Shown here: positions 21,054-38,764 of the stretch, piece by piece
How the letters are laid out: every line of letters begins with the position of its first letter
Position numbering within the stretch: position 1 is the stretch's first letter
From: Bacteroidetes bacterium GWF2_35_48
GTDB taxonomy: Bacteria > Bacteroidota > Bacteroidia > Bacteroidales > GWF2-35-48
Reading direction: 5' to 3'
Length of the DNA stretch: 48,898 bases
NCBI GenBank assembly: GCA_001769125.1
Contig: MEOG01000128.1
Location: 1 to 48,898 of the forward strand
Program-made: the position numbers and the translations under genes
Notes under the pieces: model-generated
What the model was told of the DNA's origin: nothing
Seen by the model: only the letters and a program-made list of their open reading frames with translations
The model's database searches: none

Positions 21054-21137
21054 CTACGTATTAATACTTAGCTATACTACTTAATAAATATACTCATGTT
21101 TCTGTATTGAATCGGGTTTCGTAATACTGTACTTTTG
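21054..21137 (+). promoter_or_regulatory. Promoter with CTACGTAT-N3-TACTTAG upstream element
   Basis: TTG at 21107-21109, a 20-bp spacer and TACTTTTG at 21130-21137 are a perfect Bacteroidota promoter, ending 29 bp before the start at 21167. CTACGTAT (21054-21061), three bases, then TACTTAG (21065-21071) lie upstream. The element begins exactly 53 bp before TTG, as at the promoters at 31507 and 38681. Confidence 0.75.
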
Positions 21138-21166
21138 GAATATGTTAAACTTAATAAATGTGCGTT

Positions 21167-22120
21167 ATGAAAAAGAAAATTTTACAATTAATAGCTGGAT
21201 GGTTAATAATCCAATCCAATTTATTTTCTCAGGCACTGAGTTATTCATCTAATCTAACTGTTCCGCAAAACACTGCTGATGCTGCCTGGTATTTTAAACC
21301 TACTGCCGATTTACAAGAAGGTTATTATGGTGCAGCCAAATTAGTGTATATAAATTATGCTGTGAATGGGATGACAGAGTACCACAACTTAATGTATGTC
21401 CCTTCTTTGTATTCAGGCCAAGTTATGTTACTCCGAATTCTTTTGCCTCCGGGAACAAAACAAGCGACCATTTTTATGGAGTCTAATGACTGGATTTGTT
21501 CTTATCCAAATTGTGCTGTAATGAGAACGTTTAACACCGATCCAGGGACGTATTGTAATCAGTCAACAGGTGATGGAACGACTTGTGGAAGTAGTACTGG
21601 AACTTTTTATTACAATAGTGATTTATCGCCAGCCAGTGGCGGGTATAATGCTACTATTAATTCAACAACCGTATTGCCGGTTGCACAATATTTTTATTTT
21701 GTTCTTTATAATGGTTTGGATGGTGCCAATTTTACTCTTGGCTCCATGTCATATCAATTTAATATTATGGATACAGCATTGTATTCATGCTGGCGCGCAA
21801 AACGCCCATGGGCAGGAGGACCTGCTTCAAATAGCTGGGATGGAATAGGAGAAACGTGTACAACAAATATTAATGATATGTCTCAAAATAACAATGTAGA
21901 AATTTTTCCAAACCCAACCGATGGAAAAGTTACAGTAAATTGCCTTTCCGGAAATTCTTTTTCAGTTCAGATTTTATCCATGGAGGGTCAGATATTAAAA
22001 AATGAAGAATTTAGCTCCCCAAGTGCAGAATTAAGTATGGATGAATTTAATAAAGGAGTTTACCTTATTAGAATTCAAGATGGAAGTACTGTTCAATATA
22101 AAAAATTATTCAAACAATAA
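21167..22120 (+). CDS. T9SS type A sorting domain-containing secreted protein
   Basis: The start at MKKKILQLI (21167) is preferred to an ATG three codons earlier; length 317. A signal peptide ends near LFSQALS. The mature part (about 220 residues) contains four or more cysteines in pairs (WICSYPNCAVM; YCNQSTGDGTTCGS), suggesting disulfides, and aromatic repeats of unknown type. Residues about 240-317 are a T9SS type A domain (NNVEIFPNPTDGKVTVNC ... GVYLIRIQDG...KKLFKQ). It heads a two-gene unit with the next T9SS protein (11 bp gap). Confidence 0.85.
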   Translation: MKKKILQLIAGWLIIQSNLFSQALSYSSNLTVPQNTADAAWYFKPTADLQEGYYGAAKLVYINYAVNGMTEYHNLMYVPSLYSGQVMLLRILLPPGTKQATIFMESNDWICSYPNCAVMRTFNTDPGTYCNQSTGDGTTCGSSTGTFYYNSDLSPASGGYNATINSTTVLPVAQYFYFVLYNGLDGANFTLGSMSYQFNIMDTALYSCWRAKRPWAGGPASNSWDGIGETCTTNINDMSQNNNVEIFPNPTDGKVTVNCLSGNSFSVQILSMEGQILKNEEFSSPSAELSMDEFNKGVYLIRIQDGSTVQYKKLFKQ

Positions 22121-22131
22121 AATATACCATT

Positions 22132-24741
22132 ATGAAAACATTAAAATCATTAATCATCGGATTGCTGCTTATGTGTAGCATCGCTGTTAAGGCTCAGGTA
22201 AATTTGCCAATAACAGAAGACTTTTCAGAGATGGCTGTTCCTTCAGGTTGGACTGTTTCTAATTCATGGGACTGGTATTTTTCAAATGTCAATGAAACCT
22301 TTCCCAGCTATTCAAATGGTTACATCTGGACAAGTTTGTCTTCAATGCCATCTGATATGTTTATAATATCTCCTGTGCTGACAAGAAATGGAACAGATCC
22401 TGTAGAGTTGTCCTTTTATCAACATATTTCTATTCCGGAATACTCTATTGTTGACATTAAGGTACAAATAAGCATAAATAATGGCGTTAGCTGGAGTACC
22501 GTAGATTCAATAACTCCGGTGCAATTAGACACATTGGTAGATATTAACGAACAAAAAATAATAAATCTTACAGATAGTATTGGTAGTGCAAATCAATTTA
22601 AGGTACGATTTTTTACACGTATTATTTATGGTGGTATGGGAAATGTAAGATGGGCTATTGATGATATTTCAATTCATGAAATAATGCCTAACGATGCGGG
22701 AGTGATATCTGTTACAAATCCTGTTAGTGGCTGTGGTCTTGGCAATGAAAATCTGATAGTGAATATAAAAAATTTCGGAACAGCTACGATTCCATCTGGC
22801 ATTCCTGTTGAATACTCTACAGATAATGGTGCCAACTGGACCTCTGAAAACACAACGGCGTCAATTCTTCCAGGGGACACTATTTTACATACCTTTTCAA
22901 CCCCAGTAGATTTTAGTGTAATTGAAACGCATCATTTGTTGATTCGAACGAATTGGGCAAGTGATGAACAAAGTTTTAACAACCAGATTTCTCAAAATAT
23001 CATGAGTGAACCATTAGTAGCCACTTATCCCTATTTAGAAGATTTTGAGAGCAACAATGGTTATTGGTACACGCCTTTAGATACAAGTTATTCTTCATGG
23101 GAATGGGGGCATCCAAATTCAACAGGAATTATTGGGGGGGCAAGCGGCTCACAAAATGCTTGGAAAACGAATTTAACAGGACATCATTTAATGAATGAGA
23201 ATTCGTATATTTTAAGCCCTTGTTACGATTTTTCAGGCTTAAGCAATCCAATGATAGAATTTGATGTTTGGTATGAAGCAACGGCCTCTGCATATGGTGT
23301 GATTAGTGGGATGGTATTACAGGTATCAACAAATTATGGTACAACATGGCAGACACTTGGCGCAGCAGGCACAGGGGAAAATTGGTACACAGCAGCTGAA
23401 GGCTGGCATGGCTCAAGCTCAGAATGGAAACATGCAAAGCATAGTTTATCTACGTATGGAAATCAAAATAATGTTAAATTCAGATTTAAAATAAATGTAA
23501 TTAATCCATCATGGATTTCCCCTGAGGAAGGATTTTTATTTGATAATATACGGATTTATGAGCAGCCACAAATAGACATAAGTGTTACGGAAATAGAAAC
23601 ACCTGCAACTGGTTGCGGAATGACAAATCATGAATACGTTAAAATTAAGCTGAAAAATTTTGGTCTTGCAGATTCACCAAATAAAATACCGATTGCTTAT
23701 AGTATAAATGGAGGAACAAGTTTTGTGAGAGATACTGTTAATTATGTATTAACTCCGGGAGAAGAATTGTTGTACACTTTTTTCTCACAACCAGCTGATT
23801 TTTCTACAGTAGGTACGTATCATTGCGTTGCCCTTACAAGCATAGCAACAGATGGCAATTTGTTAAATGATACTGTTTACAGAACTATTATTCATAAGCC
23901 AATCATCTCCTCTTTTCCGTATTTTGAAGATTTTGAATCAAGTTCAGCAGAGTACTGGACAATAGGATCTTCAACAGGTGTCTCAAATTGGGTTTTAGGC
24001 TCTCCCATGAAAACTGAAATCCTACCACCACCTTCAGGCACACATGCATGGACAACCGGTTTAGTTGGAAATTATTCTTCAAGCCAGAATTCCTGGGTTG
24101 AAAGCCCTTGCTTTGATTTGACAGATGTTGATTATCCTGTAATTAGTATGAAAATTGCAGTAGCAATGGCAACGAATGATTATATATTAGTTGAATATTC
24201 CACAAATTCAGGTGCAACATGGCTTTCAGTTCCAATTCAGGATAGTTATGGCGATTCATGGTGGTATTCATTTTCAAGTGGCTGGTCTGGTTCATCAATA
24301 AATTGGACTGGGAACCCTCCAGTATCGGGTTATTTTACAGCAGTGAAGTGGGTGTATAGTGTTGCGAATGCACCTAATGTGAAATTTCGTGTTAAAATAA
24401 CTACTGATTCATATTCAAATAATGAAGGATTTGCATTTGATGATTTTGAAATTAATAATAATCCACTATTGTCTATTGCTGCGAAAGAAGAGTCAGATAA
24501 AACAGGAAAAGTATTAGTATATCCAAACCCTTGTTCCGATTATATTGTGATTTCCTCAGAGAAAATATCTCAAGGCATCTTAAAAATATCAGATTACTTA
24601 GGGAAACAAGTTTTTCAGACAAATATAGATTTGTCAAACGGAGATCTCAGTATTACTCTTCCCGAATTATCAACTGGAGTTTACAGGCTAAGCATTTATT
24701 CGAAAGAAGAATTGTTCAATCAGGCACTCATAATTAAATAA
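22132..24741 (+). CDS. Large T9SS type A sorting domain-containing surface protein
   Basis: The protein has 869 residues with signal peptide MKTLKSLIIGLLLMCSIAVKAQ. Three jelly-roll/MAM-like blocks open with an almost identical phrase (ITEDFSEM...WT; YLEDFESNNGYW; YFEDFESSSAEYW), each containing VSTN.G..W and VKFR. Between them are two CARDB-like Ig domains starting GCGLGNENLIVNIKNFGTA and GCGMTNHEYVKIKLKNFGLA. The C-terminus is a T9SS type A domain (VLVYPNPCSDYIVISS ... TGVYRLSIYSK...LIIK). Probably an adhesin or carbohydrate-binding protein at the cell surface. A strong terminator follows directly. Confidence 0.9.
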   Translation: MKTLKSLIIGLLLMCSIAVKAQVNLPITEDFSEMAVPSGWTVSNSWDWYFSNVNETFPSYSNGYIWTSLSSMPSDMFIISPVLTRNGTDPVELSFYQHISIPEYSIVDIKVQISINNGVSWSTVDSITPVQLDTLVDINEQKIINLTDSIGSANQFKVRFFTRIIYGGMGNVRWAIDDISIHEIMPNDAGVISVTNPVSGCGLGNENLIVNIKNFGTATIPSGIPVEYSTDNGANWTSENTTASILPGDTILHTFSTPVDFSVIETHHLLIRTNWASDEQSFNNQISQNIMSEPLVATYPYLEDFESNNGYWYTPLDTSYSSWEWGHPNSTGIIGGASGSQNAWKTNLTGHHLMNENSYILSPCYDFSGLSNPMIEFDVWYEATASAYGVISGMVLQVSTNYGTTWQTLGAAGTGENWYTAAEGWHGSSSEWKHAKHSLSTYGNQNNVKFRFKINVINPSWISPEEGFLFDNIRIYEQPQIDISVTEIETPATGCGMTNHEYVKIKLKNFGLADSPNKIPIAYSINGGTSFVRDTVNYVLTPGEELLYTFFSQPADFSTVGTYHCVALTSIATDGNLLNDTVYRTIIHKPIISSFPYFEDFESSSAEYWTIGSSTGVSNWVLGSPMKTEILPPPSGTHAWTTGLVGNYSSSQNSWVESPCFDLTDVDYPVISMKIAVAMATNDYILVEYSTNSGATWLSVPIQDSYGDSWWYSFSSGWSGSSINWTGNPPVSGYFTAVKWVYSVANAPNVKFRVKITTDSYSNNEGFAFDDFEINNNPLLSIAAKEESDKTGKVLVYPNPCSDYIVISSEKISQGILKISDYLGKQVFQTNIDLSNGDLSITLPELSTGVYRLSIYSKEELFNQALIIK

Positions 24742-24750
24742 TTAATACTT

Positions 24751-24797
24751 TTAAGACAGGTATTGGTGTTATTACTGATACCTGTCTTAATTTTTTT
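24751..24797 (+). terminator. Rho-independent terminator after the T9SS pair
   Basis: A 13-bp perfect stem, TTAAGACAGGTAT (24751-24763) with ATACCTGTCTTAA (24778-24790), is followed by a run of seven T. The following gene has a -7-like TAATTTTG at 24800-24807 without a clear -33 TTG. Confidence 0.9.
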
Positions 24798-24831: not shown

Positions 24832-26685
24832 ATGAAAGGAATAATAATACTATATTTTTTATTTGGATGTTATTTCCGGCTATTTTCTGGAAATACAGAT
24901 AGCTTGTTCGTTTTGGCAGATAAACTTCCAGAAAAAGAAAAATGCAAATTTCATCTCGCCATAGGAAATCAAATGCTGAATTCTTCACCTACACAATCCG
25001 TTATTCATGCGAAAGAAGCATTGAAATTTGCTTTGAAATTTAAAAATAAAAAAGAAGAAGCCGATGCATTGAGACTTCTGGGTGCTTCCTATTTTATGAA
25101 AAGTAATTACGATACAGCATTGTTTTATTTATACAAATCATTACGCTTATCTGAAAAACAGGGAGAGTTTAAAGATAAAGCCAGTGCTTTGCTGAATATT
25201 GGCGCAGCACATACAAAGCTGAAAAAATGGGATGTTGCTCAGGGTAATTACAATGAAGCAATTCTTCTTTTTGAAAAAGTGGGAGATATACTTGGGATAT
25301 CTCGTGCACAAAATAATCTTGGATGGATTTATCTTGAGCAGAATAAATACGACAAAGCTCTTGAATCTTTTTTTCAATCAATAGATGCTAAAAAGAAATT
25401 GAATGATCAAAAGGGGATTGCACACTCTCTGGGAAATATTGCAATTGTATATTCTAGGAAAAACGAGTACCAGAATGCAATTAAGTACTATAATCAATCA
25501 ATAAAAATAACTGAAAAGGAAAATGATCTTGCCGGTACTGCAACAAATTATGAAGCTTTAGGGCAGCTTTATTTTAAAATGAAAAATTATAAATTAGCCG
25601 AAGACGCTTACAAAAAAAGTATTATTCTTGCAAAAAAATCTTTATTACGGAATCTTATTCGGGCAAATTATAGAAATCTTTATTTGCTGAAAAAACAACA
25701 GAGTCAGCTTGAAGATGCTTTGTCGTTTTATGAAAAATATATAGAGATAAAAGACAGTATCAGTAATGAACAAGCACTGAAACAAATTTCAGAATTGCAG
25801 GTGCAATATGGAACAGAGAAAAAAGAAAAAGAAATAATAATTTTAAAAAATGAAAAAATAATTCAGGCATTGGAAATGTCAAAACAAAAAAACATTAAAA
25901 ATCTTATTTTGATTATTCTTTTGTTAATTGCAATTTCCTCTTTTATTCTATATAGTCGCTATCTTTTAAAAAGGCAATCAGAGACAAGACTTAAGCTTTT
26001 GAATGCACAAAAAGATAAATTTTTTTCTATTATTGCTCATGACTTGAAGGGTCCTTTTGGCGCATTTTTAAATATTTCAGAAACAATAAGCACACATTTT
26101 AACACACTAGAAAAAGAAGATATTTATACATTATCCAAGCTTTCTTACGATTCTGCTATTCACGTACAGAATTTACTTCATAATTTGTTACAATGGGCAA
26201 TGACACAGACAAACTCATTGAATTTCTATCCGGAATCTTTGAATTTATCATTTATAATACATGCTAATTTATCGTTATTTAATGCTTCTGCGCTTGAAAA
26301 AAAAATTATTGTTAATACTGATATAAATAAAACAGCATTGGTGCATGCAGATAAGAATGTTGCAAACACTGTGATGAGAAATCTGATAAATAATGCTATT
26401 AAATTTACGGAAGAGTCTGGCACTATTAATATTTATGCGGTAAGCCAAGGGGATAAATTTGTCATAACAGTAGAAGATACAGGTATTGGGATTAGTAAAT
26501 CAGATATTGAAAAATTATTTAGAATTGATATTGAAAATTCTTCGATTGGAGTTTCTAAAGAAAAAGGAACAGGCTTGGGCTTGATTCTTTGTAAAGAATT
26601 TCTTGAAAAAAATGGAGAAAAAATATGGGTAGAAAGCGAAGAAGGGAAGGGTACAAAAGTTATTTTTACTTTAAAAAAGGCATAG
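24832..26685 (+). CDS. TPR-domain sensor histidine kinase (HisKA type)
   Basis: The protein has 617 residues. A short N-terminal hydrophobic segment is followed by six or seven TPR units (residues 40-300: ALFYLYKSLRL, ALESFFQSIDA, AIKYYNQSIKI). A coiled coil (QVQYGTEKKEKEIIIL) and one membrane helix (about 358-374) come next. The kinase core has H403 (FFSIIAHDLKGP), N521 (RNLINNAIKF), D549 (VEDTGIGIS) and GTGLGL at 579-584. This HisKA/HATPase_c architecture is of the EnvZ-like group, whereas the downstream regulator is NarL type, a combination that occurs in Bacteroidota. The ligand of the periplasmic TPRs is unknown. Confidence 0.95.
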   Translation: MKGIIILYFLFGCYFRLFSGNTDSLFVLADKLPEKEKCKFHLAIGNQMLNSSPTQSVIHAKEALKFALKFKNKKEEADALRLLGASYFMKSNYDTALFYLYKSLRLSEKQGEFKDKASALLNIGAAHTKLKKWDVAQGNYNEAILLFEKVGDILGISRAQNNLGWIYLEQNKYDKALESFFQSIDAKKKLNDQKGIAHSLGNIAIVYSRKNEYQNAIKYYNQSIKITEKENDLAGTATNYEALGQLYFKMKNYKLAEDAYKKSIILAKKSLLRNLIRANYRNLYLLKKQQSQLEDALSFYEKYIEIKDSISNEQALKQISELQVQYGTEKKEKEIIILKNEKIIQALEMSKQKNIKNLILIILLLIAISSFILYSRYLLKRQSETRLKLLNAQKDKFFSIIAHDLKGPFGAFLNISETISTHFNTLEKEDIYTLSKLSYDSAIHVQNLLHNLLQWAMTQTNSLNFYPESLNLSFIIHANLSLFNASALEKKIIVNTDINKTALVHADKNVANTVMRNLINNAIKFTEESGTINIYAVSQGDKFVITVEDTGIGISKSDIEKLFRIDIENSSIGVSKEKGTGLGLILCKEFLEKNGEKIWVESEEGKGTKVIFTLKKA

Positions 26686-26812: not shown

Positions 26813-27478
26813 ATGGAAAACGAACAAATAAAAATAATACTTGTAGACGATCATCAGGTTGTGCGTGGCGGAACCAAAGCTGTACTGATACCACACAAAA
26901 ATATTAAAGTTCTTGCTGAAGCATCAAACGGTGAGGAACTTTTTAAATTACTGGAATCGCACAAGCCAGATATTGTTTTACTTGATATTTCCTTACCCAA
27001 AATGGATGGTATTGAAATAACCCGGATTTTACAAAAAAATCATCCTGAAATTAAAGTAATAATTTTTTCCGGGAAAACAGATGAAGATTCAATTTTTGAT
27101 GCGCTTGGGGCTGGTGCAAAATCTTTTTTACCCAAAGATACGATTGGCGACGAAATTGTAGAAGCAATTAATGAAGTATCAAAGGGAAATGAATATTTGA
27201 GTTTTAATATCCCCAATACTATTCTGATTAAATACATGAAAAAAGACAGAATGGCCGAACGCTTCATTGAAAAAGATGTTAACCGGCTTACCAATCGTGA
27301 GCTGGAAATTTTAAAATTGATAGCAGAAGGGTTAAGCAGCAAAGAAATAGCAGCAAAATTATTTTTAAGTTTTCGCACTGTTGACACACACCGCAATAAT
27401 ATTATGCATAAACTACAGTTATACTCTCTCCAGGATCTTATCAAGTATGCGATAAAAAATAAAATAATACAGTTGTGA
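26813..27478 (+). CDS. NarL/FixJ-family response regulator
   Basis: The protein has 221 residues. The receiver domain has D12-D13, phospho-acceptor D58 (VLLDISLP), S86 (IIFSGKTDE) and K108 (SFLPKD). The LuxR-type HTH is at about residues 155-217 (TNRELEILKLIAEGLSSKEIAAKLFL, RTVDTHRNNIMHKL). It is the probable partner of the kinase 127 bp upstream. Its target is unknown; the secreted-protein promoters described at 21054, 31507 and 38681 are candidates only by proximity. Confidence 0.95.
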   Translation: MENEQIKIILVDDHQVVRGGTKAVLIPHKNIKVLAEASNGEELFKLLESHKPDIVLLDISLPKMDGIEITRILQKNHPEIKVIIFSGKTDEDSIFDALGAGAKSFLPKDTIGDEIVEAINEVSKGNEYLSFNIPNTILIKYMKKDRMAERFIEKDVNRLTNRELEILKLIAEGLSSKEIAAKLFLSFRTVDTHRNNIMHKLQLYSLQDLIKYAIKNKIIQL

Positions 27479-27551: not shown

Positions 27552-27643
27552 ATAACTCAAAAGAGTTATTTAGATTACTTGCATTAAAAAATAAATTTAT
27601 TTGTTATATTTTTTTAATTTTGTCGTATTACTATTACGTAATA
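27552..27643 (+). promoter_or_regulatory. Palindromes and -7 box upstream of the methylase gene
   Basis: ATAACTC-AAAA-GAGTTAT lies at 27552-27569. A -7-like TAATTTTG lies at 27615-27622, and the perfect 12-bp palindrome TATTACGTAATA at 27632-27643, which ends 17 bp before the ATG at 27661. A palindrome just after the transcription start is where a repressor or the methylase itself might act. No -33 TTG was found at correct spacing. Confidence 0.4.
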
Positions 27644-27660
27644 ACTACAAAATTCTTTCA

Positions 27661-30600
27661 ATGAGTAATTCGTTAGAAAATATTTTAAATCAATTAAACC
27701 TGATTAAGCATAATGCCGTTTTTTTCAGAGAAGAGAAAAACGGACAGGTCTTTAATGGATTTTCATCAGAATTACAAAAGAAATTAGACATTATTAAACC
27801 AGATGCTTTTTTTGTTTTCAATCACCAACCGTTTATTTTATTTTTCGATTTAACACAAAATACAAAAACTGAAAAAGAAATCCATAAACAAGTTTGGTCT
27901 TTTGATAATGCGCCGGTTATTTTTATAATTAAACAAAAGGAAGTACAAATATTTAATGCTTTTCATTATAATAAAAACAATCAATGCTTAGATGAGATTC
28001 TTCTAACGGAAGAAGAAAGAAATAAGAAATTTTCATTTTGGAATTTACAAAGTGGTTTTACCTGGAAAAATTGGTTTCAGCAAGAATATTTAGAAAATAC
28101 AAGAAAAAATAATACTCGCAAAAGAGCCAACCAACAACTCTTCGAAAATATAAAACAAGTAAGAGAGGCTTTATCAGATCCTAAAACAAAAAATAGTTTA
28201 TCAGAGGATAACGCAAACACTCTAATATTACGGTTGATTTTTATACGCTACCTGATTGACAGAGGAGTCTGTATAGATGAGAATTATATTAGTGGAAAGG
28301 GTACAATAGAAAGGCGATTGAGTTTTTGTAAATTGATAGAAATTCCTTTAAAATTGAATCAATTATTCGATAAACTGAATGAAAAATTTAATGGCGTTTT
28401 ATTTAAAAACAACAACACTGCGCTTACAATAACTCAATCAAAGGCATTATCCAAGGTCTTTAATGGCGAAACTCCAGAGGAAGGCACATTATTTTATGGC
28501 TTTGGCTCTGAGTTTTATTTTGAAATATTCGATTTTTCAATTATACCTGTTGAGGTAATTTCCGGCATTTATGAATCATTAATTGATAAAGAAGCCCGAA
28601 AGTTGGATGCAGCTGTTTATACTCCTTCTTTTTTGGTAGAGTATATCCTTAATGACACAGTAGAGAAATATTTAAAAGATAATAACACTTCGGAATGTAA
28701 AATTTTTGATCCCTCAGTAGGGTCGGGTATTTTTCTGGTACAATCATTACGAAAGATGATTGATAAAGAAATTATTCTTAATAAAAAATTTAGTAAAAAA
28801 CAGTTTAGTGAGCGAATCAGAGAAATTGCCAAAAATAATCTGTTTGGAATAGACACAAATTTACAGGCATTAAAAGTAACTTGCTTTTCAATATATATTG
28901 CATTATTAGACTATCAGAAACCCAAAGATATAGATAAATACAAGTTCCCTGATCTTTTAGGTGAAAACCTATTTGAAGCAGATTTTTTTGATGAAGACAA
29001 ACCGTTTAATGAAATAATAAAAAAGCAAAATTTGAATTTCATTTTGGGTAATCCTCCTTGGAAAAGCGATAAAGAAGAAAAACATTTACAATGGCTCAAA
29101 AAGCATAAAAAAGTAACCGGAAGATTTGAAATTGCACAATCTTTTTTACTTCGTTCAAAAGATTTTATGCTGACACATACCCAATCTGCATTAATTGTAA
29201 CAAGTACTATTTTTTATAACGTAGCAAAAACAACAAAAGAATTTAAAAACGAATTTCTTACTACTTTTTGTATTAACAAATTTTTCGACTTATCTCCTGT
29301 TCGAAGATTAATTTTTGAAAAAAAAAATAGTCCGGCAAGTATTGTATATTATCGCTTATCCAAAGAAAAGGAATACCAGAATAATATAGTAAAACATCAA
29401 TCAATAAAATCTAATCTTTTTTTGAAACACTACAAAATGTTAGTGATTGAGAAATACGATCAAAAAGAGATTTTACAACACCATTTTATTGAAAACGATT
29501 GGATGTTTAAGGTGGCATTATATGGTAATACATTGGATTTCCATTTTTTGAAAAAATTTAAACATTTGCCGTGTAAAATTAAAGATCAGATTAATAAAGA
29601 TGAAGGATATACAGGAGCTGGAATTAAATCAAATATAGGAGATCATCATGCTGATTTTTTAATTGGAATGCCATTAATAGAGAACTCACAAATACAAGAA
29701 TATTATACATTTTTGAGCAAAGACCATAAGACTTTAACTAAAAAAGATGTTTATTATGAAAGTGGGAGGAAGAAGGAACTGTTTGTTGGTGGAAAAATAT
29801 TAATAAAAGAACAAGCTCGTAACGAAAGCGAAATAGTTATTTCATTCATTGATAAAAACTGCGTGTTTAAGAATGGAATATGGGGAATAACAGCTAAAAT
29901 AGAACTGCTGAAATTATTGTACGCAATTTGTATTTCAAAAGTATATACATATGATATATTTATGACATCTTGTTCTTGGGGAGTATCAACAAGACCTCAA
30001 ATAAGATTAAATGAAGAATATTTATCATTTCCTTTTATAGAGCCAAAGATTGAAAAACAAAAAGAATTAATTGGTTTAGTTAATAAATTTTTACAGCCAT
30101 TTAAGGATTATTATAAAAAGTTTACTTTAGGCGAACCAGAAGCGGATAAAAATATATTAAAGAAAATAAATGATGCTATCAATGACCTATACGGAGTCAA
30201 AGACTACGAGAAAGATTTGATAGATTATGTTCTAGATGTTTCACGTTATCAATTTCAGGAGAGCAAGCAGGAAAAATTTACCCGAGCCATACATAAGGAT
30301 TTACCATTCCTTGAAAAATATGCGGATGTCTTTTTAAAAGAATTTTCGAAAATATATACAGACGAATATATCCAAATTGAAGTATATCCGTTGGAGCATT
30401 TTATTGCCATGAATTTTGTTTTTTATAAAGAGAAACGGAACCTTGATAAAAGCATTATTTTTCCTACTGACAAAAAAGATGAAACAGCTATTCTTAAACG
30501 ATTAGCGAATAATTTGAGTATTTCTCAGATTACAAATTCTGAAGATTTTAGTAAAAATTTATTTGTACAAAAAGATATAAAAGGATTTGAAAAAAATTCA

Positions 30601-30732: not shown

Positions 30733-31450
30733 TGCTTCTACATTTATAAGGGGTAGAAAAAGTATTACCTCAATTACAGATAATAGGATAAAGCATGTTT
30801 TATGGTATATTCTGGAATGCCATCGGATTTTTTTAAACGACAATATAACATATTCACTAAAGGAGATAAAAAATACCACCAAAATAAAACCGGAAGATTA
30901 TTTCAGAACAAAATTTGTAGATAATTATTTACGGAAAAATAGAGGTTTATTACAGAGTTTTCAAATGGAAGACATTTTTTTCGGCAAAGAAGAAGTGGAA
31001 ATTTATGAAGATAACAGTGGAATTAAACAGGAAGATAAAATTGATATTTATGTTCGGGATGCCGGCTTGCAAAAGTATTGGAGTAATGAGGGGGAAGTAT
31101 ATTTTGCAATCGAATGTAAAAGAATAAAACAATTGTCCGACTCAAATATTTATATTTCTGATATTGACAAGTTCTGCAAACGAAATTATACAAATTTAAG
31201 ATTGCCTTTTGTAGGGCAAATTGCATTTATTGAAAACACAACATTGTCCCATGATCTTGTCGCCATTGAAATAAACAGTTATTTGAAAAAATCTACTTCA
31301 ATTATTACTGACAAATATCTTTCAAATATTAAACTACACAGTACAATAGACTGTTCTTATCATTCATTACATAAGAAGAACTTCCTGAAAAAGGAATCAT
31401 TTTTAATCTATCATCTGTTATTTAACTATTCATCAATCGTAACCGACTGA
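30722..31450 (+). CDS. PD-(D/E)XK nuclease partner of the methylase
   Basis: This 242-residue protein starts inside the last codons of the methylase (11-bp overlap), which implies coupled translation. I do not recognise a named family. Residues 105-133 hold the nuclease signature: D108 in KIDIYVRD, then E131-C-K133 in YFAIECKRIK, with beta strands around both. The N-terminal part (about 1-90) is helical and might contact DNA or the methylase (TDNRIKHVLWYILECHRIFL). The C-terminal part has a conserved-looking LPFVGQIAFIEN strand. The likely role is cleavage of DNA lacking the methylase mark, assisted by the upstream protein's recognition domain. Other options are a McrC- or DISARM-like accessory nuclease. 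Confidence 0.7.
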   Translation: MSFSASTFIRGRKSITSITDNRIKHVLWYILECHRIFLNDNITYSLKEIKNTTKIKPEDYFRTKFVDNYLRKNRGLLQSFQMEDIFFGKEEVEIYEDNSGIKQEDKIDIYVRDAGLQKYWSNEGEVYFAIECKRIKQLSDSNIYISDIDKFCKRNYTNLRLPFVGQIAFIENTTLSHDLVAIEINSYLKKSTSIITDKYLSNIKLHSTIDCSYHSLHKKNFLKKESFLIYHLLFNYSSIVTD

Positions 31451-31506: not shown

Positions 31507-31591
31507 CTACGTAAAAACACCTACTATTTCCTACTGACCCAAAATCCAACAATACCCGATTGATTCCACCTGCTTTTCAGCCGTATCTTTG
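31507..31591 (+). promoter_or_regulatory. Promoter with CTACGTA upstream element, ankyrin/surface operon
   Basis: CTACGTAA begins at 31507, exactly 53 bp before TTG (31560-31562). After a 21-bp spacer comes a perfect TATCTTTG (31584-31591), 16 bp before the ATG at 31608. The second half-site here is CACCTAC (31518-31524) instead of TACTTAG. Next to it is a further TCCTACTGA (31529-31537). Confidence 0.7.
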
Positions 31592-31607: not shown

Positions 31608-32168
31608 ATGAAAAAAGTTATTACAATAGCGATACTGTTTTTTCTAACAATCGCGATTAAATCAGTACAGGCGCAAAACGAATTACTGACCGCTTCAGAA
31701 GTTGGAGATTTTTCTACTATAAAAAAATGTATTGAAAGAGGCGATGATGTAAATTTTTTTTTATATCATCCTCATTCCTCTGCCGATGATCATCATTCTT
31801 GCAACCACAGCGAAAATCGTACAGCTTTATTTTGGGCGGTACTTAGAAATGATTATGAGATTGCAGAATATTTACTACTGAACGGCGCAGATGCAAATCT
31901 CCATATTATTCATGGTACAACGGTTTTGCATTGGGCTGCTACAAAAGGAAATATCCAGATGATAAAACTGCTTCTAAATTACAAGGCAAATGTTAATGAA
32001 AAAGATGACAAGGGTCGCACGCCTCTAATGCTTGCCTGTTTTTACAATTTTTCAACAGATGCTGCTGATTTGCTCATGCTTTCTGGAGCCAGTTCGAAAG
32101 AAAAAGACGCCTTGGGAAATGATTTTGAATTTTATATTCAAAACAGCCTGAAAAAAAACAATCAATAA
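31608..32168 (+). CDS. Exported ankyrin-repeat protein
   Basis: The protein has 186 residues with signal peptide MKKVITIAILFFLTIAIKSVQAQ. Four ankyrin units follow: ELLTASEVGDFSTIKKCIER, TALFWAVLRNDYEIAEYLLL-NGADANL, TVLHWAATKGNIQMIKLLLN-YKANVNE and TPLMLACFYNFSTDAADLLM. A loop between units one and two is rich in histidine (HPHSSADDHHSCNHSE) and might bind metal or just be a spacer. First gene of the operon driven by the promoter at 31507; the CHU-type surface protein follows 10 bp later. It is probably periplasmic and binds a partner protein. Confidence 0.88.
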   Translation: MKKVITIAILFFLTIAIKSVQAQNELLTASEVGDFSTIKKCIERGDDVNFFLYHPHSSADDHHSCNHSENRTALFWAVLRNDYEIAEYLLLNGADANLHIIHGTTVLHWAATKGNIQMIKLLLNYKANVNEKDDKGRTPLMLACFYNFSTDAADLLMLSGASSKEKDALGNDFEFYIQNSLKKNNQ

Positions 32169-32178
32169 GCTAACAATT

Positions 32179-35100
32179 ATGGAAACTCAATATTTAAAAA
32201 ACGGAGATGAAAAAGACAATCATTCTGATGCGTTTTTTTCAGATATTAAAAAAATTAAAATTAAAAGAATAAATTTTACCTATAAATTTTTGTTCTCCTT
32301 TATCATTACCATTTTATTGATATTACTTATCTTAAACAATGTGTGTGCACAAAATTCTTGTGGCAATTCCGGATTTGAGTCCGATGATTTTACAGGTTGG
32401 ATCGGACAAACAGGAATTTCTCCTATGGGACCTGTTAATAATCCTGTAATGACAAATACCGGAATCGTTAATGGTCGTCATACAATAACAAGTGGAGGAA
32501 ACGATTGGGTATTGTCTCTGGCTGGTATTACATTGCCCAAAGTAGCTCCCAATGGAGGATTGCATAGTGTAAAGTTAGGGAATGAAAGCGTGGGCTCGGA
32601 AGCTGAACGATTAAGTTACAGATTTCTTGTTACACCCGATAATGCAAGTTTTGTTTATCAGTATGCAGTCGTTCTTAATGATCCGGGTCATGATGGAAGA
32701 CCCATGTTTACTATTTCTATTAAAACAACATTAGGAGAATCGGTTCCTTGTGGAGATTATAACGTGCAGGCCAATGCCGGAATTCCAGGTTTTTCTTATG
32801 TTAATATTGCAAACTATCCAACCGGACCTGCCAGTATAATTTACAAACAATGGACAAGTGTGCCTGTTAATTTGTATGACTACATTGGTGATTCCGTTGT
32901 AGTTGAATTTACAACAGCAGATTGCACCGCCGGAGAGCATTTTGGTTATGCTTATATTGATGCCTACTGCAACCAAATGGAGATAGAAACCAGTTATTGC
33001 GCAGGAGATCCTACCGCACAACTTACCGCCCCTTCGGGTTATCAATTTTATCAATGGATAAACGGACAATTAGGTCAAACAATTACATTGAATAATCCAC
33101 AAAACTTTGATAGTCTTACTGTGTTTATGACACCTGCAGAGGGTTGTGAGCAGATTCTTACGGTTTATATTGATTCGATACCAGTACCTGTTGCCTCATT
33201 TAACCATACGGAGGCTTGTGTTGATGAAATTATTCATTTTACAGATAGTTCGTATATTATTGGAATCGGTAATATTGTTACACATCATTGGATTTTTGAA
33301 AATGGGGATACTTCTGCAATTGCAAATCCTGATTACTCATTTTCATCGCTGGGGGATCATTTGGTGACACTTATCGTAACATCCGACAGAGGTTGTATTG
33401 ATACAATAATTCAAACAATAAATATTTCGGCTTGTCCATGTTTTACGCCTCCATTCACTATAGATATTATTCAACCTCCTTGCCATAACTCCAATGCTTT
33501 AGTACAATTTCAGGGAAGTGCAACAATTTCTGCTCAATTTATTTGGAATTTTGGACAGGGAACAGTACTGAATGGATCCGGTGCAGGGCCTTTCGAACTT
33601 TCATTTCCTCATGATAGTTTGGCTTATGTTGTTGCTTTATCGGTAACAGACTATGATACTTTAGGGAATGCCTGTGCGCCGGATTCTTCTTTTAATACTG
33701 TACTATTTCCGGCACCCATTTCAACATCAATATCTGTTGATAATGTTTCATGCCATGGTGGACAGGATGGTTCTGCAACTATAATTGCAAGTGGCGGAAC
33801 TCCTCCGTTTACGTATCAATGGAGCGATGCACAACAACAGCAAACGACAACAGCAGACAGCCTTTTTCAGGGAATGTATTATGTGAGTGTATATGATTTT
33901 AATAATTGTATTAAAACCGATTCTGCAATAATATCGCAACCATCTGCTTTTAGCGCAGTTTTAAACCCAACAGATTTGTTATGCTTTGGAAATAATTCCG
34001 GTTCTGTTTCTGTCTTTATGAATGGAGGAACTCCTCCCTTTTCGTTTGCATGGAGTAATGGACAAACAGTACAAAATCCTACAGGCTTGGCAGCAGGTAT
34101 TCATGTTGTGAATATTGAAGATGATGAAAATTGTATTTATACATATTCTGCAACGATTAATCAGCCAACACAACTAGCAGGACAAATTTCATTTATCGAA
34201 CCAAAATGTTATGGAGGTAGCGATGGCGAAGCCTTTGTTTCTGCAAGTGGTGGAACTCCTCCTTATACCTATTTTTGGAATACTTTTTCTGAGTCAGAGC
34301 ATATCACCGGGCTTTGGTCAAGCTTGTACAGTATGACCATAACTGATGCAAATAATTGCAGGCAGTATCTTTCATCTTCAATGAATGAACCGGAGCCTGT
34401 AATAGTAACGCTACCTTCCAGTTTTACAGCCTGTAAAAATCTGGTAACAACAATTACTGCTACTTCTATAGGAGGAACACCTCCTTACCTGTTTCATTGG
34501 AATAATGGAGCAACGGGTCAGCAAATTGTTTTAACACCAAGTAGTGTACACAATTTTAACGTTTATGTAACAGATGCAAATAATTGTATCAGCAATTCTG
34601 CCTATACAACGGTAAATGTTTATCCTGATATTGATATTTCACTTATACAAAGACTTGATTCTATTTGCCCGGGAGATACTGTAAGCATATTCCCACAAAT
34701 ACAAGGAGGGAAAGAGCCTTTTACTGTTTTACTGAACAATGGAGGTGTTCCTTCCCCATTTATCATTATTCCTGAATTTACACAAACATTCACTGTTTCT
34801 GTAAGAGACGATTGCGGACTGACAGATCAGGATTCGATTCATATTGTTGTTATGCCACTGCCTGAGATAAATATAGAAGCAGATATTTATAAAGGTTGCC
34901 AGCCTCTTACTGTTCATTTTCACGAAACAACACCCTTTACAGGTGAAACTTATATATGGCATTTTGATGATTGGGATGAAAACAATCTTTCACTTGCACA
35001 AAATCCCATTCATGTTTTTGATGAATTTGGAATTTATACAATTTCTCTTTTAGTAACATCAAAATTTGGTTGTAGGGCAAAATTAATTATTCCAAACATG

Positions 35101-35643
35101 ATAGAAGTTTATCCGAAACCAGAGGCTCGTTTTACTACCGATAAAAATCATGTTTCAATAAATTCTCCTTTGGTTTCTTACTTCGATAATTCCGTGGGAG
35201 CAGCGCAATACTGCTGGTCTTTTGGTGATGGAGATTCATCGTTGACGCAAAACCCTATGCATAGTTTTTACGATTATGGAGAATTTACAACAACCCTTAT
35301 AGTTACATCAGACAAGCAGTGTAAGGATACTGCAGAAGTTTTGATTATTGTGGAGGAAGATTTTACTTTTTATGCTCCATCTGCATTCTCACCCGATAAC
35401 GATGGACGGAATGATATGTTCAATGTTTTTGGTACGGGAATAAATGAAGACGATTTTTCTTTGATGATATATGATCGCTGGGGAGAACTAATATTCACTT
35501 CTGATAAATTGGAATATGGGTGGGATGGTAAAATTAAAGGAGAAAAAGTTGCAACAATTGGAACCTATGTGTGGATGGCAACATATCGCGACAGGAATAA
35601 AAATCAACACCAAAAATCAGGATATGTTACAGTAATACGATAG
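32179..35643 (+). CDS. Gliding-motility-associated C-terminal domain protein with SprB and PKD repeats
   Basis: The protein has 1154 residues. About 35 polar residues precede the export helix (FLFSFIITILLILLILNNVCAQ), an unusually long n-region. After a lectin-like head (SCGNSGFESDDFTGWIG...) come PKD domains (ACVDEIIHFTDSSYIIG...HWIFENGDTS), about four SprB repeats (VSCHGGQDGSATIIASGGTP; LLCFGNNSGSVSVFMNGGTP; PKCYGGSDGEAFVSASGGTP) and two more PKD domains. The C-terminal 90 residues are the gliding-motility-associated domain (FYAPSAFSPDNDGRNDMFNV...MIYDRWGELIF...GTYVWMATYRD), a T9SS type B signal. It is probably a surface adhesin. Confidence 0.93.
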   Translation: METQYLKNGDEKDNHSDAFFSDIKKIKIKRINFTYKFLFSFIITILLILLILNNVCAQNSCGNSGFESDDFTGWIGQTGISPMGPVNNPVMTNTGIVNGRHTITSGGNDWVLSLAGITLPKVAPNGGLHSVKLGNESVGSEAERLSYRFLVTPDNASFVYQYAVVLNDPGHDGRPMFTISIKTTLGESVPCGDYNVQANAGIPGFSYVNIANYPTGPASIIYKQWTSVPVNLYDYIGDSVVVEFTTADCTAGEHFGYAYIDAYCNQMEIETSYCAGDPTAQLTAPSGYQFYQWINGQLGQTITLNNPQNFDSLTVFMTPAEGCEQILTVYIDSIPVPVASFNHTEACVDEIIHFTDSSYIIGIGNIVTHHWIFENGDTSAIANPDYSFSSLGDHLVTLIVTSDRGCIDTIIQTINISACPCFTPPFTIDIIQPPCHNSNALVQFQGSATISAQFIWNFGQGTVLNGSGAGPFELSFPHDSLAYVVALSVTDYDTLGNACAPDSSFNTVLFPAPISTSISVDNVSCHGGQDGSATIIASGGTPPFTYQWSDAQQQQTTTADSLFQGMYYVSVYDFNNCIKTDSAIISQPSAFSAVLNPTDLLCFGNNSGSVSVFMNGGTPPFSFAWSNGQTVQNPTGLAAGIHVVNIEDDENCIYTYSATINQPTQLAGQISFIEPKCYGGSDGEAFVSASGGTPPYTYFWNTFSESEHITGLWSSLYSMTITDANNCRQYLSSSMNEPEPVIVTLPSSFTACKNLVTTITATSIGGTPPYLFHWNNGATGQQIVLTPSSVHNFNVYVTDANNCISNSAYTTVNVYPDIDISLIQRLDSICPGDTVSIFPQIQGGKEPFTVLLNNGGVPSPFIIIPEFTQTFTVSVRDDCGLTDQDSIHIVVMPLPEINIEADIYKGCQPLTVHFHETTPFTGETYIWHFDDWDENNLSLAQNPIHVFDEFGIYTISLLVTSKFGCRAKLIIPNMIEVYPKPEARFTTDKNHVSINSPLVSYFDNSVGAAQYCWSFGDGDSSLTQNPMHSFYDYGEFTTTLIVTSDKQCKDTAEVLIIVEEDFTFYAPSAFSPDNDGRNDMFNVFGTGINEDDFSLMIYDRWGELIFTSDKLEYGWDGKIKGEKVATIGTYVWMATYRDRNKNQHQKSGYVTVIR

Positions 35644-35680
35644 TAAAAAACAATGGCTATTATTTTATTTAATATTTATT

Positions 35681-35688
35681 AAAGGAGG
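35681..35688 (+). promoter_or_regulatory. Strong Shine-Dalgarno sequence
   Basis: AAAGGAGG lies 6 bp before the ATG at 35695. Clear Shine-Dalgarno sites are rare in Bacteroidota and in this window, so this gene may be translated unusually well or have been acquired. Confidence 0.7.
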
Positions 35689-35694
35689 AAAATT

Positions 35695-38253
35695 ATGTGT
35701 AAAAATTTGATGTTATTTTTGCTTGTCATACATTTCAATTGTTCTTTTTCTCAAACACCTGAAGCATTCAAATACCAGTCCGTAGTACGAAATAACCTGG
35801 GGCTTCCTTTGATAAATCAGGCAGTCAATTTCAGGATTACTGTTTTAAAAGGTGGGATTTCAGGTTTAGAGGTTTATGGAGAAACTCATTTGACAAGCAC
35901 GAATGAATTTGGACTTGTTTCTTTAGAAATTGGAGTGGGTACGCCTGTTGCCGGTCAATTTTCAAATATCAACTGGGCTGATGGACCTTACTTTTTAAAA
36001 ACAGAATTAGATATTAATGCCGGCAATAATTTTCAGGAAATGGGAACAATACAATTGCTTTCTGTACCCTTTGCTTTGCACGCAAAAACAGCAGAATCAC
36101 TTACGACAAATATCATTGAAACCGATCCGATTTTTTCTCAAAGCCCATCCAGTGGAATTTTAAACAGTAATATTACGAACTGGAATTCTGCCTATAGTTG
36201 GGGAAATCATGCAACAGCAGGATATTTAACTTCAGAAACTGACGGTTCAATTACCAACGAACTTCAATCATTAAGCATTATCGGAAATAATTTAAGCATT
36301 TCAAATGGAAATACAATTGCATTACCAACGACAAGCATAACAGAAACTGATCCGATTTGGAATACAGCGTCTCTTAATTATTATACAAAACTAAATATGC
36401 AGACATCAGGCGCATCTCAATTGCATTTTAATAATTTAATAAATAAACCTACAACATTAATGGGTTATGGTATTGCCGATGCAATTAATACATCGCATCC
36501 TGCAAATGGCATTACGAGTACAAATATCACAAATTGGAATTCTGCCTATAACTGGGGAAATCATGCAACAGCAGGATATTTAACAACCGAAGCAGATGGT
36601 TCTATAACAAATGAATTGCAAACTCTTAGTATTGTAGGTAATAGTTTAAGCATTTCAAATGGAAATACAATTACATTACCAACAGGAAGCAGTGATACGT
36701 GGACAATAAATGGCAATAATATTTACAACAGCAATTCCGGCTTTGTGGGCATAGGTACAATAACACCTACAGCAACATTGAATATTGCGAGTCTAACCAG
36801 TATCGCACTACGGCTGCAACCTGTAGGGGGAGGGAGTTCCACTACCAGCCTTCCCTCTGTATTAGATTTTTGGTCAACTTTCGATAATTTATCAACAGAT
36901 CAGGCACCCAGGCGCACGGCTTCCATAAGGGCAAAATTTGCAGGAGGAGCATGGGGTAATGAAACACTTATTTTTGGTGTTGGAAATAATGGAGCAAGTA
37001 ACGACGCTGCAACGGGTGTAATTGAAAGAATGAGAATAACCGGAACGGGACAGGTTGGCATAGGAACAACTGCTCCTCTTGCAAAATTGCATGTTGAAGA
37101 AACAGGGCTGAATGTCCCATCTTTTGCCGTAGGGAATAGTGTAAAATGGTTATTTACCTGCAATAATTTAGGAGCAGGGGTTGTTAATCCATTAATTCAA
37201 AATAGCGATATCGGTTTAATTGTAGGTAATGGTGCTCCTGAAAATAGTAACTTATTTATCGGGCCATGGTCTGCAAACCCAACAGGAATAAGGCTGACAG
37301 ATACATCAATAACCTTTGGCGGAAAATTAATTCATTCTTTTGGTGGGATTCACCCTGATAATATTCCTTTTCAGGATCAGGTTGCTTACGAGATTGGGAC
37401 TGCCGGAAAATACACAAACAATTTAGGTACAGGCTGGGGAAATAATTTTCATTTTGCATCGTGGGTTCAAAGCCAGGGTACCAAACCTTCGGTAGCTGTT
37501 TTTGGTGAAGGAGAAGGAATCGGGAGTGGCTCAAAAGTCTGGGGCGGTAATTTTGTTGCGTATGCGAATTATAATTCCGGAACACAAGGAGCAAATTCAG
37601 CAACAGCTATTGGTGTTGAAATTAATTTTGGTTCCATACAAGCGGGAGGGATTGCCCATGGCTTAGTGCTTGCATCTGCCGGCTACCATAAAACACAAAA
37701 TTACATACAAGTTCAAAGCAATACAACCGAGGCAATACCAGACAATGGAATTGTATTTGGGGGGTGGGGGCGCAGACCCGTTAATGGGAGTCTTATATCT
37801 ACTGCCGGACCTTTTTTATCAATACCCATAGGAATAGATTTTAGTGCTGCAACCTTTGGTCAATATGCTTTTATTTCTACGAATTTTAATGTCTCAGGAA
37901 GTGGTTGGGTAACCGCTTTAGGTGTAACTCAAACTTCAGATATCAGGACAAAAGAAAATATTTTTCCTATTAAAAATAGTTTAAAGAAAGTTCTTCAAAT
38001 ACAAGGTGTGGAGTTTAATTTTAAAGATGACGTTGTTGGTATTAATGCTTTTTTGAAAAACAAACAAATTGGCTTTATTGCTCAAGAGCTCGAAAAAATA
38101 CTACCTGAAGTTGTAATGACAGATAGCAATGGGAAAAAATCGGTTGCCTATCAAAATATGGTTGCATTAATTATTGAGGCAATAAAGGAACAGCAATTAT
38201 TAATAGAAAAGCAACAAAAAGAAATCGAAAACTTAAAAAAAACAAGCCATTAA
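35695..38253 (+). CDS. Tail-fibre-like surface protein with S74 intramolecular chaperone domain
   Basis: The protein has 852 residues with signal peptide ending at SQTPEAFKYQ, followed by an N-terminal domain common in Bacteroidota (YQSVVRNNLGLPLINQAVNFRI). Residues 150-350 repeat phrases such as NITNWNSAYSWGNHATAGYL and DGSITNELQSLSIIGNNLSI. The central region contains VGIGT-type turns. The last 115 residues (TSDIRTKENIFPIKNSLKKV, QIGFIAQELEKILPEVV, YQNMVALIIEAIKEQQ) are the peptidase S74 chaperone domain, which folds trimeric fibres and cleaves itself off, ending in a coiled coil. Probably a trimeric surface fibre. It lies 51 bp after the previous gene in the same operon. Confidence 0.88.
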   Translation: MCKNLMLFLLVIHFNCSFSQTPEAFKYQSVVRNNLGLPLINQAVNFRITVLKGGISGLEVYGETHLTSTNEFGLVSLEIGVGTPVAGQFSNINWADGPYFLKTELDINAGNNFQEMGTIQLLSVPFALHAKTAESLTTNIIETDPIFSQSPSSGILNSNITNWNSAYSWGNHATAGYLTSETDGSITNELQSLSIIGNNLSISNGNTIALPTTSITETDPIWNTASLNYYTKLNMQTSGASQLHFNNLINKPTTLMGYGIADAINTSHPANGITSTNITNWNSAYNWGNHATAGYLTTEADGSITNELQTLSIVGNSLSISNGNTITLPTGSSDTWTINGNNIYNSNSGFVGIGTITPTATLNIASLTSIALRLQPVGGGSSTTSLPSVLDFWSTFDNLSTDQAPRRTASIRAKFAGGAWGNETLIFGVGNNGASNDAATGVIERMRITGTGQVGIGTTAPLAKLHVEETGLNVPSFAVGNSVKWLFTCNNLGAGVVNPLIQNSDIGLIVGNGAPENSNLFIGPWSANPTGIRLTDTSITFGGKLIHSFGGIHPDNIPFQDQVAYEIGTAGKYTNNLGTGWGNNFHFASWVQSQGTKPSVAVFGEGEGIGSGSKVWGGNFVAYANYNSGTQGANSATAIGVEINFGSIQAGGIAHGLVLASAGYHKTQNYIQVQSNTTEAIPDNGIVFGGWGRRPVNGSLISTAGPFLSIPIGIDFSAATFGQYAFISTNFNVSGSGWVTALGVTQTSDIRTKENIFPIKNSLKKVLQIQGVEFNFKDDVVGINAFLKNKQIGFIAQELEKILPEVVMTDSNGKKSVAYQNMVALIIEAIKEQQLLIEKQQKEIENLKKTSH
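36170..36690 (+). repeat. Internal direct repeat in the tail-fibre gene
   Basis: A block of about 160 bp is present twice, near 36175-36330 and 36530-36685, with clear identity (both contain GGGGAAATCATGCAACAGCA). The encoded phrases differ by a few substitutions, so the duplication is fairly recent. Confidence 0.75.
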
Positions 38254-38408
38254 AAAGCACAAACTTAGAAACTGTTTTGAATTTTCATTTTTCTTCTTTT
38301 ACTTGTTGGTTACAGTATTATGTACACAGGAAAGCTGTTGATTAACCATTTTTTAAAACATTGTTGTCCATTTAAATATGCAACTACCTTCCTTTATATA
38401 ATAGGAAT

Positions 38409-38586
38409 GCCTCCGTAGGAGGCAAATAGCGATATAAAAAGAGTTAGATAGGTTTTCGCACCGCTCTGTAAGAGCGGAATAATATTTGGTTAAACTATTG
38501 CGCATCCTCACGTAGAACGTGACAGGTACGGAGCGCATTTTTACAGACTTTATCATTGTATTTTCGCTATTTTGCCTCTACGAGGC
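38409..38586. repeat. Cluster of palindromic repeat units in a gene-free stretch
   Basis: The gene-free stretch 38254-38790 carries four short hairpins: GCCTCC-GTA-GGAGGC (38409-38423), CCGCTCT-GTA-AGAGCGG (38461-38477), TCACGT-AGA-ACGTGA (38508-38522) nested in TGCGC...GCGCA (38499-38537), and GCCTC-TAC-GAGGC (38574-38586). The first and last are the same unit in opposite orientation: both stems are followed, in unit direction, by AAA(A)TAGCGA. The rest of the stretch holds the promoter at 38681 and no gene. Confidence 0.75.
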
Positions 38587-38680
38587 GGTTTTTACTAAAT
38601 TTTAAACAGTAGTTTTTCTTTGCAGCAATAATGATTTTAAAATCAAAACAGTTTCTTATCTTTTGCTTCTATAAATATTT

Positions 38681-38764
38681 CTACGTATAGTTACTTAGTG
38701 ATTTTCTTGTATTTAAAATCATTAGTTTTCTGATTGATTTAGGTCTCAAACAGGCTTATTTTTA
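38681..38764 (+). promoter_or_regulatory. Promoter with CTACGTAT-N3-TACTTAG upstream element, SUMF1-like gene
   Basis: CTACGTAT (38681-38688), three bases, and TACTTAG (38692-38698) begin exactly 53 bp upstream of TTG (38734-38736). A 20-bp spacer and TATTTTTA (38757-38764) follow, 26 bp before the ATG at 38791. The -7 box has A instead of the final G. Confidence 0.7.

Follow-up and report, generated by a model that had tools for sequence, protein, structure and literature searches.

A putative NarL/FixJ-type operator at a fixed distance from three exported-protein promoters in a Bacteroidales contig

Described operators and the control of surface proteins

The heptamer rule of NarL, TACYYMT, shares its TAC with the half-site of the three promoter elements, S1, S2 and S3, that are the subject of this analysis. 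ComA of Bacillus subtilis, a regulator of the NarL family, activates from a hexamer inverted repeat with an optimal spacer of 4 nt and a second element slightly downstream (PMC4797271). S1-S3 resemble the ComA site in being 6-4-6 inverted repeats 5' of a promoter, with a further element downstream at S1 and S2 (PMC4797271); the half-sites differ, however, TTGCGG against TAnGTR, and ComA serves a quorum response in Bacillus whereas the system proposed here would link a TPR kinase to surface proteins of Bacteroidota. RcsB is similar in that a dimer occupies two half-sites (PMC5829831). NarL, VraR and RcsB all differ from the system proposed here in half-site, phylum and targets.

Two described systems bear on the type of gene controlled. 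PorXY-SigP of Porphyromonas gingivalis is, as proposed here, a two-component system governing genes related to type IX secretion (T9SS); PorX has a PglZ domain and no helix-turn-helix (HTH) and acts via SigP on secretion-machine genes (PMC4800418), whereas in the present case a DNA-binding regulator is proposed directly at cargo promoters. The PorX type, which lacks an HTH and works through an ECF sigma factor, does not describe either full response regulator considered below (RR 2796 and RR 26813, named by their start positions), as both carry a GerE HTH. The remFG-sprCDBF operon of Flavobacterium psychrophilum likewise shows regulated transcription of an SprB surface operon, from SM4 (sigma-54) and SM5 promoters, but PMC9723704 explains it by sigma factor motifs and not by an inverted repeat upstream; the words NarL, LuxR and 'response regulator' are absent from that text.

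The kind of system proposed here, a NarL/FixJ operator with nearby targets, is already known. In open-licence PubMed Central texts, we found no description of this operator, of its link to the present Bacteroidota regulator family or of its use at T9SS surface-protein promoters, and no paper naming a target site for Bacteroidota kinase/NarL-regulator pairs. Bacteroidota genomes are rich in such pairs, and a readable half-site would make their targets predictable from sequence. It would also reveal cargo-level control of T9SS surface proteins, distinct from the control already described for the secretion machine, and S1-S3 together with the neighbouring two-component regulator make up a candidate circuit, open to testing, for the control of secreted surface proteins.

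The inverted repeat and its phase to three promoters

The window, by which we mean the whole stretch of DNA analysed (48,898 nucleotides), is the complete contig MEOG01000128.1 (C128) of a draft genome of 5.98 Mb in 142 contigs, that of Bacteroidetes bacterium GWF2_35_48. Open reading frames (ORFs) in the window and in the loci compared with it are mechanical calls, and the genomes compared are drafts. The features discussed are collected in Table 1.

Table 1. Positions of the operators, promoters and genes in the window
Feature	Positions	Strand	Remarks
Operator S1	21054..21071	+	CTACGTA-TTAA-TACTTAG inverted repeat, 53 bp before TTG; matrix rank 4
S1 third half-site, degenerate	21078..21083	+	TACTTA at +24, assigned by eye
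T9SS-pair promoter	21107..21137	+	TTG-N20-TACTTTTG
Exported protein with Por_Secre_tail	21158..22120	+	320 aa
Exported protein with Por_Secre_tail	22132..24741	+	869 aa
Strong terminator-like hairpin	24751..24790	+	18 pairs, then T run; between T9SS pair and kinase gene
TPR sensor kinase (HATPase_c)	24832..26685	+	likely partner of RR 26813
NarL/FixJ-family response regulator RR 26813	26813..27478	+	REC + GerE; proposed binder of S1-S3
Operator S2	31507..31524	+	CTACGTA-AAAA-CACCTAC inverted repeat, 53 bp before TTG; matrix rank 7
S2 third half-site	31532..31537	+	TACTGA at +25, assigned by eye
Ankyrin/SprB/S74 promoter	31560..31591	+	TTG-N21-TATCTTTG
Ankyrin protein, SprB/PKD/CHU_C protein, Peptidase_S74 protein	31608..38253	+	signal peptide of ankyrin protein by eye
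Operator S3	38681..38698	+	CTACGTA-TAGT-TACTTAG inverted repeat, 53 bp before TTG; matrix rank 3
SUMF1-like promoter	38734..38764	+	TTG-N20-TATTTTTA
SUMF1-like protein	38791..40308	+	FGE-sulfatase domain; exported, per N-terminus by eye

An earlier note on this DNA had reported a CTACGTA element starting at 21054, 31507 and 38681 on the forward strand and followed in each case, exactly 53 bp on, by the start of a TTG; a check of the sequence confirmed this at 3/3 sites, and likewise that the -7-type boxes TACTTTTG, TATCTTTG and TATTTTTA stand 20, 21 and 20 bp behind the three TTGs. The box TAnnTTTG is described as the sigma-A -7 box in PMC9723704. In 800 kb of the same genome together with the window, it lies 5' of 160 of the 386 ORFs that have at least 60 bp of intergenic DNA, as compared to 39 after letter shuffling, and the distance from TTG to TAnnTTTG peaks at 19 (18 cases) and 20 (17 cases), with 0 to 7 cases at each of the 23 other spacings between 10 and 34. 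This frequency and this spacing peak indicate that the promoters behind S1-S3 are of the ordinary Bacteroidota type; with N20 at S1, N21 at S2 and N20 at S3, where the last base of the box is A, they agree with the housekeeping promoter TTG-N19/20-TAnnTTTG.

The heptamer itself turned out to be just the left arm of the element. At all three sites it belongs to an inverted repeat, TAnGTR-N4-YACnTA, and the CACCTAC that the earlier note had set down as an exception at the second site is indeed present there, as the right arm of the S2 repeat. A direct repeat with a 10-bp period (TACGTA / TACTTA) was also considered; S1 and S3 fit it and S2 does not, and it was rejected in favour of the inverted repeat, which fits 3/3. 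Short half-sites, inverted or in tandem, roughly one helical turn apart are a trait of NarL/FixJ-family operators, and inverted ones are found in 3/3 sites as well as in 28/37 promoters linked to related regulators (see below). The third half-site of S1 occupies, by eye, the same place (+24) as the TACGTG of promoters in other genomes such as that of locus L274; S3 has no third half-site. From the operator centre to the end of the -7 box, 74.5 bp (S1), 75.5 bp (S2) and 74.5 bp (S3) were counted. The sites themselves and their 53-bp phase, kept at 3/3, support the view of the earlier note that a regulator site stands in fixed phase to the promoters of three genes for exported proteins.

S1 and S3 agree at 15/15 defined positions and share ATTGA at the -33 box, as would be expected if S1 and S3, and perhaps S2, were copies of one duplicated promoter and owed their likeness to descent rather than to selection for binding. 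We regard this as very improbable: by eye, the 35 bp that separate the element from the TTG align poorly when no gaps are allowed, the genes behind the three promoters are unrelated, and S2 retains the half-site pattern and the phase though its other bases differ. Moreover, copies of a duplicated promoter would still carry the same operator.

Several observations concern the surroundings of the sites. The ankyrin, SprB/PKD/CHU_C and Peptidase_S74 genes would, from their spacing, form one transcript. Between the regulator pair and these genes lie, at 27601-31450, an Eco57I/MmeI-type methylase gene and then a 242-aa ORF for which Pfam gave no match. A gene for a TPR protein with a SpoIIE-like domain (19626-20954, reverse strand) runs divergently from the S1 promoter, and S1 could serve this gene as well. 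The perfect repeat is absent from the other exported genes in the window (1163-, 40440+ and 44382+). A look-alike before 44382 (10/15, 54 bp before a TTG) is weak and has no inverted repeat, and was dropped.

Occurrence of the repeat in this and other genomes

CTACGTA alone is not rare. Two further copies occur in the window, at 23450 (+) and 4816 (-), both within ORFs, so that 5 were found against 1.78 expected, and at least 5 appeared in 8/100 shuffles. The triple is a different matter: a 7-base run common, at one offset, to three of the 7 promoters called by scan in the window arose in 1/3000 dinucleotide shuffles and in 0/2000 random sevens drawn from 53 other promoters of the genome sample. 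An identity of 15/18 between two promoters, the weaker of the two coincidences, occurred in 7/3000 shuffles and in 71/2000 random sevens of real promoters.

Genome-wide (5.98 Mb), TAnGTR-N4-YACnTA occurs at 15 places, against 24 for the reversed control. Eleven of the 15 are within ORFs and four are intergenic, three of these being S1-S3. The fourth intergenic repeat (G000:C44:17881-17896; L324) is flanked by a TPR protein gene on one side and a divergent gene on the other and has no 53-bp layout. In the 800-kb sample of the same genome, the spacer-4 repeat was present 0 times in 110 kb of intergenic DNA and once in 690 kb of coding DNA, and in the window 3 times in 4.8 kb of intergenic DNA, where about 0.006 would be expected from the one intergenic copy elsewhere in the genome. 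The corresponding Poisson probability for 3 sites is 3e-8, or 3e-7 after allowing for nine spacers, values to be read in the knowledge that the half-site was chosen non-blind, with both data sets already seen.

The wider expectation of the earlier note, that CTACGTA would keep a preferred distance to promoters across the genome, did not hold. A genome-wide search for CTACGTA-N36..56-TTG gave 56 matches. The gap was exactly 46 bp in 6 of these, and 3 of those 6 were S1-S3. The longer form shared by S1 and S3, CTACGTAT-N3-TACTTAG, had no other copy in the genome when at most 1 mismatch was allowed; when as many as 3 were allowed, the two strands together yielded 51 matches, S1 and S3 among them, as compared to 235 for the reversed control. 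A genome-wide CTACGTA regulon was therefore rejected, neither a preferred distance nor an enrichment being found across the genome; as far as perfect repeats show, the regulon is local to its own contig.

Among 295 genomes of the order, the present one included, CTACGTA-N4-TACKTAG followed by the TTG/TA promoter spacing was matched three times, by S1, by S3 and by one site in genome G199, and its reversed control 0 times. In G199, which belongs to another family of the order, three CTACGTA/TACGTAG half-sites stand in a row about 450 bp 5' of a 246-aa ORF (L190 1501; G199:C25:7551). Eight whole genomes contained 3-14 spacer-3 and 2-21 spacer-4 copies each, fewer than the reversed control in 8/8 for spacer 3 and in 5/8 for spacer 4; few of these places were inspected, and we therefore make no claim of genome-wide enrichment.

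These counts bear on the reading to which we give the least credence, namely that the pattern is a product of chance, picked post hoc from a 49-kb AT-rich window. The 7-mer alone is not enriched, a pair as good as S1/S3 over 18 bp can be drawn from real promoters at the frequency given above, and the choice of half-site was non-blind, all of which speaks for such a reading. It does not readily account for a triple at one offset that was almost never reproduced by shuffling or drawing, for the location in the window of three of the four intergenic copies in the genome, for the high ranks of S1-S3 (3, 4 and 7) under a matrix built on other genomes, or for the single further match to the full layout in the 295 genomes.

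No orthologue of the whole cluster was found in 31 genomes (the present one included) searched with three of its proteins, so that conservation footprinting of S1-S3 was impossible. Matches of the T9SS protein covered just the sorting tail and those of the ankyrin protein the repeats, and hence provided no orthologues. For the SUMF1-like protein, ten homologous genes were scanned (of 16 listed; 19 loci), and one of them, in genome G011, had a perfect spacer-4 repeat, TTAAGTA-TCTT-TACCTAA, in non-coding DNA about 225 bp before its ATG. No scorable TTG/-7 layout was found behind the G011 repeat, and the other nine homologues had no perfect repeat in the fetched stretch. The G011 site slightly favours the operator reading.

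The candidate regulator and its relatives

RR 26813 combines a receiver domain with a LuxR-type HTH (Pfam Response_reg, 8.7e-28; GerE, 2.7e-20), and its nearest solved structures are VraR (3e-38) and NarL (5e-34), which it matches over almost its full length. In named genomes, its best match had 45% identity, too low for a near relative. Homologues were sought in 393 genomes of the order, 89 of which have one at 1e-50 or better. The 61 loci compared are L185 of the same genome and 60 foreign places, drawn from the best 61 with the omission of one in G346; several of the foreign loci share a family and are not independent. By sequence motif, 37/61 loci (36 foreign ones and L185) contain an ammonium transporter (AmtB) gene or a gene that we take to be TorF-like. 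One TorF-like protein submitted to Pfam had no match, and the AmtB neighbour was identified as Ammonium_transp.

The same half-sites, at spacer 3, recur in the promoters of these genes. The repeat was present at 9/10 positions or better in 28/37 lead-gene promoters of the TorF-like/AmtB loci, 13 of them perfect, compared to a mean of 1.43 and a maximum of 4/37 in 40 shuffles; the 9/37 below 9/10 include L185. Promoters with a repeat at 9/10 or better came from 21 families of the order. Spacers 0-2, 4-6 and 8 were each found in 0 to 4 of the 37 promoters, and spacer 7 in 9/37, above the shuffles, an excess that we interpret as a pairing between the right arm and a third half-site. Perfect spacer-3 repeats in the 60 foreign loci numbered 16 in 76 kb of intergenic DNA as opposed to 1 in 577 kb of coding DNA. 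Spacer 4, found in 3/3 window sites, sets these apart from the operators of the kinase-regulator-TorF-like-AmtB loci, where the spacer is mostly 3; perfect intergenic spacer-4 sites occurred in 2/60 foreign loci, one before a TorF-like gene and one before a receiver-domain gene.

The half-site was also recovered by a blind enumeration of 45,056 half-site/spacer words, the five best of which, each exact in just 4/37 promoters, included TnCGTG, TACGnG and TAnGTG with spacer 3 and CTnCGT with spacer 5; the last is the same repeat as TAnGTG with spacer 3 in another register, and CACGnA with spacer 8, which came first, corresponds to the right arm and the third half-site. A matrix was built on the best 28/37 promoters, as the highest in total score of twelve seeds; L185 scored below 0 and was outside them. 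Its consensus is nTACGTG with spacer 3. Over the window and the 800-kb sample (849 kb of the genome, coding and non-coding, spacers 0-12), this matrix placed S3 third, S1 fourth and S2 seventh, while the first automatic seed had converged on a different register and left S1-S3 unranked. The half-site recovered from other genomes thus yields a matrix, chosen from twelve seeds, that recognises the window sites.

In a tree of 68 rows, RR 26813 falls in a clade of 12 (98/96), together with L263-L267, L269, L285, L300, L307, L319 and the paralogue L184 from its own genome. In the stretch seen, no TorF-like or AmtB gene lies within 6 kb of any of the 12 clade regulators. A perfect spacer-3 repeat stands beside L300 and L307, and one at 9/10 beside L285, each before the gene of a PKD protein with Por_Secre_tail. 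A second repeat at L300 (9/10) and a perfect one at L343, in the genome of L319 (G071), both precede PKD proteins whose ends are out of view. At three of these promoters, two at L300 and one at L343, a TTG stands at +37 with a -7 box 20 bp on, and a fixed phase to a PKD/T9SS-type surface-protein promoter therefore recurs outside the present genome, at another distance. The promoters at L307 and L285 had no scorable TTG/-7 pair. Against this, perfect repeats around the 12 clade regulators themselves were confined to the window, L300 and L307; the fetched stretches of L184, L263-L267, L269, L285 and L319 had none. Repeats at 9/10 near other clade regulators are, by estimate, about as frequent as shuffles predict, so that only perfect ones were counted outside the TorF-like/AmtB set, L285 and the second L300 repeat being named as 9/10.

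The earlier note had suggested that one of the LuxR-type regulators in the window might be the binder. The homologues adjoining the same half-site argue for the NarL/FixJ type, and the tree favours RR 26813, leaving RR 2796 the less favoured candidate. The reader of S1-S3 as NarL-type operators might nevertheless be RR 2796, the GerE-like ORF at 704-1036 or a regulator elsewhere in the genome. The recognition helix of RR 2796 is nearly the same as that of RR 26813 (RTVDTHRTNIMKKL against RTVDTHRNNIMHKL), its kinase neighbour has HisKA_3, the genome encodes eight full-length homologues of the RR 26813 type (the two in the window included), and the T9SS pair and RR 26813 are probably on separate transcripts. 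We judge this unlikely, as RR 2796 lies far from the repeat-linked regulators in the tree, where it pairs with L189, the stretches around the six other paralogues are free of perfect intergenic repeats at either spacer, 3 or 4, and the operons flank the kinase 24832/RR 26813 genes on either side. The ORF at 704-1036 (reverse strand; 110 aa) resembles, by eye, a lone LuxR/GerE helix-turn-helix and would be the third LuxR-type ORF in the window.

We consider it probable that S1-S3 are operators of a NarL/FixJ-type regulator, most likely RR 26813, which would control the local surface-protein cluster. In such a circuit, the TPR sensor kinase 24832 would phosphorylate RR 26813, a dimer of which would contact the 6-4-6 inverted repeat with one helix-turn-helix per TAnGTR hexamer; the degenerate downstream half-site of S1 and S2 may take up a second dimer. 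Counted from the end of the -7 box, the operator centre is some 75 bp upstream and, in all three cases, on nearly the same face of the DNA, which would suit an activator contacting RNA polymerase from upstream. The targets switched would be the T9SS pair, the ankyrin/SprB/S74 genes and the SUMF1-like protein. Activation is proposed as the sign of regulation because the operator position resembles the upstream geometry of the ComA type; binding, the kinase-regulator pairing and a signal are likewise what we infer. Kinase 24832 has TPR repeats and a HATPase domain; a membrane segment and an HDLKGP-type H-box were recognised by eye. Regulators of the NarL type usually pair with HisKA_3 kinases; a search of Pfam gave no HisKA_3 match for kinase 24832 and one for the other kinase in the window, 3472, so that the pairing of 24832 with RR 26813 relies on gene order. 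The terminator-like hairpin would end the T9SS-pair transcript, and the kinase and RR 26813 genes are therefore probably not co-transcribed with the pair. Autoregulation of RR 26813 is not indicated.

A broader reading, possible rather than probable in our view, is that the Bacteroidota kinase/NarL-regulator pairs form one family of switches, acting locally and dedicated to surface proteins of the outer membrane and of T9SS. They would use one half-site code, TAnGTR, and paralogous circuits would be kept separate by the spacer (3 or 4) in combination with how far the operator stands from the promoter (37, 39, 53 or about 60 bp).

Two minor observations concern the neighbourhoods of these regulators. 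The loci in which TAnGTR-N3-YACnTA precedes a TorF-like or AmtB gene occur in many families of the order, and their operator may belong to a family-wide ammonium-transport switch. In 9/28 of these promoters, several of them close relatives and part of them without a scorable -7 partner, the TTG starts exactly 39 bp after the start of the repeat (L274, where the repeat is at 1285-1301, L275, L271, L294, L299, L314, L292, L296 and L317); in others it is found at about +59 to +63. Finally, a tyrosine integrase gene is present in two copies with 92% DNA identity, at 5923-7173 of the window (reverse strand) and at 5836-7086 of L189 (C64, same genome), and each copy adjoins a kinase/NarL-regulator pair.
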